A stretch of DNA of 31,413 bases from a virus. A program made the translations under genes and the position numbers. The stretch lies in the IMG/VR virus record IMGVR_UViG_3300030450_002428, positions 1 through 31,413 of that record; one strand, written 5' to 3'. Below, piece by piece: positions 3,149-10,312 of this stretch (position 1 is the stretch's first letter; every line of letters starts with the position of its first letter). The notes under the pieces are model-generated. The model searched no databases and was not told the DNA's origin. It worked only from the letters and a program-made list of their open reading frames with translations.

Positions 3149-3184
3149 TTTTGTTATTCCAATATCTTTATTTAGATTTGGTTT

Positions 3185-3915: not shown

Positions 3916-6015
3916 ATGGCTCTCAGTAATTTTGTAATTCCAGTAAAGGTTGATACGTCGCAAGTTTCTAAAGGTCTTAGAAGCGTTTCATCTCAATTTC
4001 AAAATTTATCAAATAATCTTAAGGCCACAGGGCAGGCTCTAACATTAGGTGTAACAGCACCTTTAGCACTCTTAGGTAGAGAGTTCGTAAGGACCGCATC
4101 TGATGCAGAAGAAACTCAAGCAAAATTTAGTGCTGTATTTAAAGAGCTTACAAATGATGCAGAAGAATTTGTACAAGCTACAGCACAGCGTATAGGCCGT
4201 TCAACAAATGACCTACGTAAGTTTATGGGTACATTGCAGGATACATTTGTTCCGCTTGGTTTTGCTCGTGCAGAAGGTCTTGAATTTTCAAAAGCATTGA
4301 CACAATTAACATTAGATTTAGCCTCTTTCAACAATATGGCTGAATCAGAAGTTTTAGAAGGCCTACAATCTGCTATTGTAGGTAATCATGAAACAATGAG
4401 AAAATTTGGTGTAATTATAAACCAAACAAACCTGAATCAAGAGTTACTTAATATGGGTCTCAAAGATGGCATTAAAAATGCTACTGAGGCACAGAAGGCA
4501 CAGGCTAGATTAAATATTATAATGGCAGGTACCGCAGATGCACAAGGTGATGCTGAAAGAACTTCTGGAAGTTTTGCAAATCAACTTAGAAGATTACAAG
4601 GTTTATTTGAAGAATTAGCTGTAGAACTTGGTAACATCATTATGCCCGCTATACAAAAGTTGATTACTTTTTTTGGTAATGCAATTCAAAGATTTAGAAC
4701 ACTTAGCGACGAAACTAAAATTTTAATTATAGGTATAGGTGCTTTAGTTACAGCTTTAGGTCCTCTACTTTTAGCATTAGGTTATTTGATTACTCCTATA
4801 AATTTAGTGATAGCAGGTATTGTTGGTTTCGGTGTCGTTGTTTATAAAAACATTGAGCCTATAACAGATGTCCTTTCTAACATTGCAAATGCTTTTATTG
4901 ACATCTATAACGAATCTGAATTTTTAAGATTGAGCATTTTTGAATTAGGATTCTTTTTTACTGCATTAGGAAAAACTGGGGGTACTGTTTTAAAATCTTT
5001 AGTAGATGGATTTGCAGGTTTAACTACAGCTTTCAATTTGATAAAACAAGGTGAATTTGATATAGCAGGTCTAATATTTAAAGGCACAGCAGAAAAAATA
5101 AAAACTAATTTTGAAGATTTAGATAATGAAATGTCAGCTGCTTATGATATAGGTAAAGTAGGTGCATTAAGAAATAAAATAGAAAACACTACAGGCGAAG
5201 GTATCAGAGATAGTATTGCTAATTCTTTACTAGGAGTCAAGGATGATTTGTTAATCATGTTCAAAAACTTAGGCTTTGATATTGGTAAAAGTACTGAGGA
5301 AGGTATTAATGGTGGCTTAGAAACATTAAATAGTGATGATGAAGATAGCCCATTAACGAAGCTTACTACTAAGATGAATGAGGTGCAGGAAAAAGGACAA
5401 GAAATGGCTAATGCTGTTAGCGGTGCTTTTGGTCAATTTGCAACAAACGTTGTCAGTAGTTTTGAACTAGCTAATGAAGGTGCAAGCCAATTTTTTAATC
5501 AGATTATAAGCATGATGATTAAATTAATACAGATGGTTATACAAGATGCTATAATTAGAAAAATGACAAATAAACAAGTTATAGCTGACGAAGCGAAAAA
5601 AATGGCTACCCTAGCAGGTCTGCAGTTCGCAGGTCTTTCATCTTTAGCATCTGTAACAAGTGCTAAGATGGTTATTGACCAAGCTTCTGCAACAAGTTCT
5701 GCTATTGCAGGTGGTGCGGCTAGTGGTGCGGCAACAGGACCTGCTGCAATTTTTACATCTCCAGCCTTTATAGCTACATTAGTTGGTGGTGTTTTAGCGG
5801 CATTTGCATCTATACCTAAATTTGCTAAAGGTGGTATTGTCACAGGTCCTACAATCGGTTTAGTTGGAGAGGCCGGTGCAGAGGCTATCATACCATTAAA
5901 TAAACTAGATAGCATGATGGGTGGTGGAACAAAGGGAGAGTTTGTATTAAGAGGTCAAGACTTAGTTTTAGCACTAGAAAGGGCTGATGATTTCAGAACA
6001 AGAATAACAGGATAA
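3916..6015 (+). CDS. Tail tape measure protein
   Basis: 699 aa. The N-terminal half is helical with typical tape-measure segments (SSQFQNLSNNLKATGQALT, then FVRTASDAEETQAKFSAVF). A long hydrophobic region follows at about residues 268-312 (ILIIGIGALVTALGPLLLAL and on), then a helical segment. The C-terminal segment FAKGGIVTGPTIGLVGEAGA plus EAIIPLNKLD is a widespread tape-measure ending. The protein sets tail length and is chaperoned by the G/GT products encoded just upstream. At the usual 0.15 nm per residue this length suggests a tail of roughly 100 nm, which is inference. Its stop overlaps the next start by one base (TAATG), so the downstream tail-tip gene is probably coupled to it. Confidence 0.92.
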   Translation: MALSNFVIPVKVDTSQVSKGLRSVSSQFQNLSNNLKATGQALTLGVTAPLALLGREFVRTASDAEETQAKFSAVFKELTNDAEEFVQATAQRIGRSTNDLRKFMGTLQDTFVPLGFARAEGLEFSKALTQLTLDLASFNNMAESEVLEGLQSAIVGNHETMRKFGVIINQTNLNQELLNMGLKDGIKNATEAQKAQARLNIIMAGTADAQGDAERTSGSFANQLRRLQGLFEELAVELGNIIMPAIQKLITFFGNAIQRFRTLSDETKILIIGIGALVTALGPLLLALGYLITPINLVIAGIVGFGVVVYKNIEPITDVLSNIANAFIDIYNESEFLRLSIFELGFFFTALGKTGGTVLKSLVDGFAGLTTAFNLIKQGEFDIAGLIFKGTAEKIKTNFEDLDNEMSAAYDIGKVGALRNKIENTTGEGIRDSIANSLLGVKDDLLIMFKNLGFDIGKSTEEGINGGLETLNSDDEDSPLTKLTTKMNEVQEKGQEMANAVSGAFGQFATNVVSSFELANEGASQFFNQIISMMIKLIQMVIQDAIIRKMTNKQVIADEAKKMATLAGLQFAGLSSLASVTSAKMVIDQASATSSAIAGGAASGAATGPAAIFTSPAFIATLVGGVLAAFASIPKFAKGGIVTGPTIGLVGEAGAEAIIPLNKLDSMMGGGTKGEFVLRGQDLVLALERADDFRTRITG

Positions 6016-9745: not shown

Positions 9746-10139
9746 ATTTTAATTTTTCAGGATGAAACTCGTGATGAAGCATTCTTGCAGTCTGTAACCA
9801 TTCTTTATCAATAAAATAATTTCCATCATTAGTTACAACATTATAAAGTAATCTTCCTAAATCTGAAATAGCCTCAGAAAGAGTTTTGCCTTTTACAGCC
9901 TTTACATCACTAAAATCAATTAATTCATTTTCTTGATACTGCAGATTGTAAGCTGTTATGTTAGCTACATACATGTACCAAAGCATCCTTCCTAAATATT
10001 CTTTAGGACTTTCAAAAGAATATTCAGCTCTATACTTATAATGTTTTTGAGCTTTTATAAATTTGAGAACATCTTCTCTGTCTCTTAAACTCTCATTAAC
10101 ATTTTCTATAAATTTTCTATCAAATAAAATTACACTCAT
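9726..10139 (-). CDS. Unknown helical protein downstream of a structured RNA leader
   Basis: 137 aa, predicted mostly alpha-helical, with a conserved-looking core (SPKEYLGRMLWYMYVANITA) and a HHEFHPEKL segment near the end. I do not recognise the family. The gene begins 25 nt after a strongly folded element (10165-10256), whose closing stem is followed by five T, so its expression may depend on that RNA. It is followed by four small overlapping ORFs. No membrane segment or signal peptide. Confidence 0.65.
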   Translation of the reverse strand: MSVILFDRKFIENVNESLRDREDVLKFIKAQKHYKYRAEYSFESPKEYLGRMLWYMYVANITAYNLQYQENELIDFSDVKAVKGKTLSEAISDLGRLLYNVVTNDGNYFIDKEWLQTARMLHHEFHPEKLKFEKQKV

Positions 10140-10164
10140 ATCTAAAGTTTTAAAGTTTTAAAAA

Positions 10165-10256
10165 GATTGAGAGTTTAGCTTAGTCCCCTGCAACTGAATA
10201 ATTTAATATTCTTGCTGAGAGGAATTAAATGCCCGCATCTAAACCAACCCTCAATC
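10165..10256 (-). ncRNA. Candidate structured RNA / leader element (92 nt)
   Basis: Read on the minus strand, the outer 7-bp stem GATTGAG/CTCAATC encloses a 6-bp stem GTTTAG/CTAAAC. Inside are a small ATG-CGGG-CAT hairpin and a long arm: CCTC/GGGG (one wobble pair), then GCAA/TTGC, then GAATA/TATTC with loop TTAAAT. ATTTAA beside the small hairpin (10225-10230) is exactly complementary to that loop (10201-10206), so a pseudoknot is possible. The closing stem is followed by TTTTT and, 25 nt after the element, the ATG at 10139. It is not a tRNA (no T-arm or CCA) and I can match it to no known riboswitch. It may be a cis-regulatory leader, an attenuator or a free phage RNA. Confidence 0.6.
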
Positions 10257-10312
10257 ATATAGCTAATATCGAAAGTTTTTTTATAAATTCAAAATATTTT
10301 TAAAAAATATTT

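Follow-up and report, generated by a model that had tools for sequence, protein, structure and literature searches.

A predicted RNA fold enclosing a 27-codon reading frame in the early operon of a phage of Bacteroidota-type bacteria

What is a strongly folding stretch of RNA doing in a gap of a phage early operon? The question is raised by positions 10165-10256 (minus strand) of IMG/VR record IMGVR_UViG_3300030450_002428, analysed here over all of its 31,413 nt (hereafter, the window). The record is that of a phage, with tail tape-measure, portal and major head genes all present. Relatives of the portal include those of Cellulophaga phages, named relatives of the rusA-like gene that precedes the element are confined to Flavobacterium phages, and the host group of the virus is Bacteroidota-type bacteria. 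The early operon runs on the minus strand from 12885 to 8394. Within it, the element occupies a 173-nt gap between a resolvase-like gene (10663-10313; PHROG 244 ‘RusA-like’, E = 2e-12; viral contigs contain 46 relatives) and the long gene that follows (10139-9726; 137 aa, no family), both on the minus strand. A preliminary description of this locus called the gap the only sizeable non-coding one in the operon, which is doubtful: it holds a 27-codon open reading frame (ORF), and the operon has two further gaps of 137 nt (with a 57-aa ORF inside) and 118 nt. An AAACTTT.GATAT..ATGA-like motif lies on both flanks of the element (10140-10164 and 10258-10285, minus strand), possibly serving as short homology for gene exchange in the slot.

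As a computed property, the fold is real. Read from the minus strand, the RNA of 10165-10256 reaches a minimum free energy (MFE) of -32.9 kcal/mol, against -16.7 ± 2.9 for shuffled sequences (z -5.6; 0 of 5000 as low), so that on this measure the structured RNA of the preliminary description is supported. Among 1254 101-nt windows taken from both strands, the one around the element has the lowest MFE; the other top windows, re-tested with 400 shuffles each, gave z values of -3.0 to -4.8. The plus-strand copy folds like its shuffles (-13.2, z -1.0). Two readings at the DNA level were rejected: an inverted repeat, because the opposite strand folds poorly and the helix uses strand-specific G-U pairs, and a small mobile element, other copies and a target duplication both being unseen.

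According to the MFE and the structures of all three known copies, the RNA is predicted to form one dominant rod. Its closing helix, of 18 bp with one bulged A (GGUUUAG pairs with CUAAGCU), is followed on the 5' side by a 15-nt one-sided bulge, AUGCGGGCAUUUAAU, and then by an arm of 6+4+5 bp (15 bp in all) capped by the loop UUAAAU. Several details given earlier can be recognized in this structure, namely the outer 7 bp between GATTGAG and CTCAATC, the 5 bp GAATA/TATTC that form the tip of the arm with its loop TTAAAT, the TTTTT immediately behind the closing stem (10164-10160) and the ATG at 10139, 25 nt past that tract. The multi-stem architecture built from them is unsupported: where separate 7-bp and 6-bp stems had been drawn, the MFE gives the bulged 18-bp helix instead, and the bases assigned to a small hairpin are unpaired. 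The suggested AUUUAA/UUAAAU pseudoknot also falls, because a one-nucleotide linker to the base of the arm would have to span 15 bp; the apex is out of reach unless the arm melts, and, judged from this geometry, the pairing looks sterically impossible.

At the 5' end of the fold lie two features that the preliminary description did not contain, a promoter-like element and the ATG of the 27-codon ORF. The promoter consensus of Bacteroidota is TTTG/TANNTTTG; in F. johnsoniae, most transcripts carry leaders, and initiation is generally weaker where the start codon lies close to structure (PMC6847099). A candidate promoter of this type, TTTG-N19-GATATTAG, is found at 10263-10293 (minus strand); it matches eight of ten consensus positions, its -7 box being imperfect, and relatives have TTTG-N19-TAAATTTG or TTTG-N19-TAAATTAG at the same place. 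The window also contains two perfect promoters with 19-nt spacing, at 3150-3180 (plus strand) and 12921-12891 (minus strand), each with an ATG 4-5 nt beyond it, which suggests that leaderless mRNAs occur in this phage. The candidate shares both the spacing and the 4-5 nt to an ATG with these two. Since the promoter-like boxes and the ATG at 10258 adjoin its 5' end, and the fold begins only a few nucleotides after the boxes, the fold appears to start where transcription, and perhaps translation, would start.

The element outlasts a change of neighbour. Copies were found at two of the 46 viral loci with a rusA-like protein, L042 and L043 (also designated L016 and L020, respectively). Whereas the window continues from the element into the 137-aa gene, both relatives carry an unrelated 95-aa gene there; beyond these genes the operons match once more. 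Since the element persists although the first downstream gene is exchanged, its role is probably not tied to one particular downstream gene.

Given the observed fold, ORF and promoter-like boxes, and the retention of the element across this exchange, we tentatively favour, as the best of the explanations weighed here, a structured 5' leader that opens a short accessory operon, encloses a leaderless micro-ORF and does not depend on which gene comes next. The fold is confined to the operon strand, is the strongest in the window and adjoins the promoter-like boxes, all of which argues for such a leader; the lack of any two-sided base change, the restriction to three close copies and the imperfect -7 box argue against it. 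Transcription would start at about 10258-10262, and the first bases of the RNA would form the 5' strand of the 18-bp closing helix, while the leaderless ORF within the fold would be translated. Ribosomes on the micro-ORF could then hold the closing helix open, allowing the transcript to continue into the accessory genes. When translation fails, the rod would form and, ending in U5, might reduce read-through, or else shield the 5' end of the mRNA or direct its processing. The most specific version, a translation-coupled switch in which a leaderless micro-ORF folded into a rod gates an exchangeable accessory operon whatever its genes, is quite improbable. On present evidence, the element is not a new kind of RNA: it is lineage-specific and would act, if at all, like known leaders.

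Three such systems offer partial parallels. Leader-peptide attenuators of the trp/his type likewise have a short ORF that sits at the 5' end and overlaps a structure, and a U tract ahead of the operon genes; unlike them, the element has no regulatory codon run, its loop is too large for a standard terminator, and one dominant rod is predicted in place of two clear alternative hairpins. The ompA-type leader carries a 5'-terminal stabilizing stem-loop. The element resembles it in having a strong helix a few bases from its putative 5' end, whichever gene follows, but differs in that the leader contains an ORF, and the likeness is one of position and predicted fold. T7-type phages have RNase III processing hairpins between early genes, and the element, too, would be a long irregular hairpin between genes of an early phage operon; unlike those sites, it lies directly behind promoter-like boxes, and its uninterrupted pairing is short.

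A close rival, although itself somewhat doubtful, is that the locus is an ordinary micro-gene for a leaderless 27-aa peptide, placed in the variable slot that follows the rusA-like gene, the fold being incidental. The ORF, MIEGWFRCGHLIPLSKNIKLFSCRGLS, runs from the ATG at 10258 to a TAA at 10175 (minus strand), its stop codon falling in the 3' strand of the closing helix. The -7 box is 4 nt away from its ATG, much as at both perfect promoters, and all three contigs keep the frame open. In other related phages, a small accessory protein gene follows the rusA-like gene in the same slot, directly behind the same promoter position, and that of L047 begins with an ATG at the homologous base; those accessory genes, however, are clear protein genes, whereas the ORF here has 27 codons of atypical content. 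Its codon log-likelihood is -0.107 per codon, against 0.23 ± 0.11 for real 26-codon stretches of the phage, which places it below all 289 of them and within the off-frame range; for so short a sequence, this lowers the likelihood of coding without excluding it. In 20% of shuffles with a fixed ATG, the frame behind it stays open for 26 codons. The peptide yielded no homologue or family, and a scan of GTDB with a degenerate peptide pattern returned 22 matches, all unrelated. Recoding also speaks against an incidental fold, as the element folds more stably than 1500 of 1500 synonymous recodings of the ORF. Fold strength alone is nevertheless no proof of an RNA function, because L001 has, in that slot, a genuine protein gene that also folds strongly (z -4.4) and, when the ORF's own synonymous codons were permuted, 9 of 1000 permutations folded as well as the element.

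Does the element have a function at all? It might instead be a remnant in a fast-changing gene slot, functionless as RNA and as peptide, with a fold that is the chance extreme of 31 kb. The strongest fold in the window was the one picked, several coding windows likewise reach z values of -4 to -5, and only three copies are known. Nor is the element unusually conserved: L042 and L043 differ from the window copy at three and two positions, respectively, and such a divergence of 2-3 in 94 nt is no lower than the 6-7 in 351 of the neighbouring gene. Neither the frame nor the fold has been lost in any copy, however, the fold is strand-specific, and the element lies exactly between the promoter-like boxes and the U5 tract. 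We consider this reading unlikely; the micro-ORF and the fold, each a putative functional feature, both look placed rather than random.

The variable sites themselves are few. Three of the four lie at third codon positions (AGC/AGT, AGG/AGA and TAA/TAG) and one at a second position (GGT/GTT), so that three of the four changes are synonymous, including that from TAA to TAG, as would be expected of a micro-gene. All four tolerate the fold: three are one-sided and pair-compatible, and the fourth breaks one pair, which is restored by moving the bulge. The preliminary description had named two signs that would count against a structured RNA, and they diverge: compensatory double changes are absent from the three sequences, yet the energy is below that of shuffles. 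When the majority base serves as reference, changes drawn at random from the same types keep the fold as well with P = 0.005 (0.008 for synonymous sites only); when the window copy does, P = 0.26. This retention of the fold gives weak support to an RNA.

The element is lineage-specific, known from three contigs that are all close, and its reach is small. A blastn search of it against phages and plasmids returned only a 19-base chance match. Scans of IMG/VR by the rusA-like protein and by DNA and peptide patterns for the 5', middle and 3' parts gave only the two loci already described as real copies, the remaining pattern matches folding unlike the element or sitting in other genes. A covariance model (R1), run on 151 sources, recovered known copies only and found none in 395 Bacteroidota genomes, the latter scan being without a positive control. 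Such pattern and model searches detect close or moderately close copies only.

A third alternative, distinctly unlikely, is a phage small RNA in its own right, about 95 nt long, reaching from the promoter to U5 and acting in trans or as a decoy. The ends of the fold do coincide with the promoter-like element and with the T5 tract directly 3' of the closing helix (10160-10164, minus strand; kept in both relatives), the rod is compact, and it is kept while the neighbouring gene changes. Against this stand the narrow distribution, a separate promoter for the following genes being unseen in the 25-nt spacer behind the element, and a negative scan for intrinsic terminators (GC-containing stem, loop of 3-8 nt, at least five T behind), even though U5 follows an 18-bp helix; a standard terminator would have a smaller loop and a longer U tract. 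No known RNA emerged either: Rfam 15, riboswitches included, gave no family at the curated cut-off and none accepted at E values up to 10, the best sub-threshold score being that of RydC (19.8 bits against 48 required), and ARAGORN found no tRNA or tmRNA cloverleaf. In this respect, the structured RNA without an Rfam match that was described at first is supported. A gene-specific riboswitch or protein-binding leader, as the leader position and compact fold might suggest and as had also been proposed (a ligand-sensing leader), is hardly credible, because the copies are not all followed by the same gene, both downstream genes have relatives in other places that lack the element, no Rfam family matches and a conserved multi-helix junction is lacking.

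Should the favoured structured leader indeed regulate, it would show a way for phages to control exchangeable accessory genes without gene-specific signals, in a host group whose transcription and translation signals differ from those of Escherichia coli. If the locus is a micro-gene, it is a case in which a strong predicted fold of an AT-rich phage turns out to be a small coding sequence.

Other features were noticed in relatives. A tRNA-like hairpin of about 45 nt occurs in the accessory slot of three of them (L053:2247-2292, L054:4079-4124 and L085:442-487); it combines an acceptor-like stem with a standard-looking T-arm, GGGUG-GUUCAAUUC-CACCC, has neither a D nor an anticodon arm, and was missed by ARAGORN and, where scanned, by Rfam. 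After the rusA-like gene of L060, about 400 nt (5342-5760) behind a promoter-like region have stops in all three sense frames; a further non-coding element may occupy the slot here. In L066, a short hairpin, GGGGTG...CACCCC, lies between the promoter region and a start codon (5339-5375).
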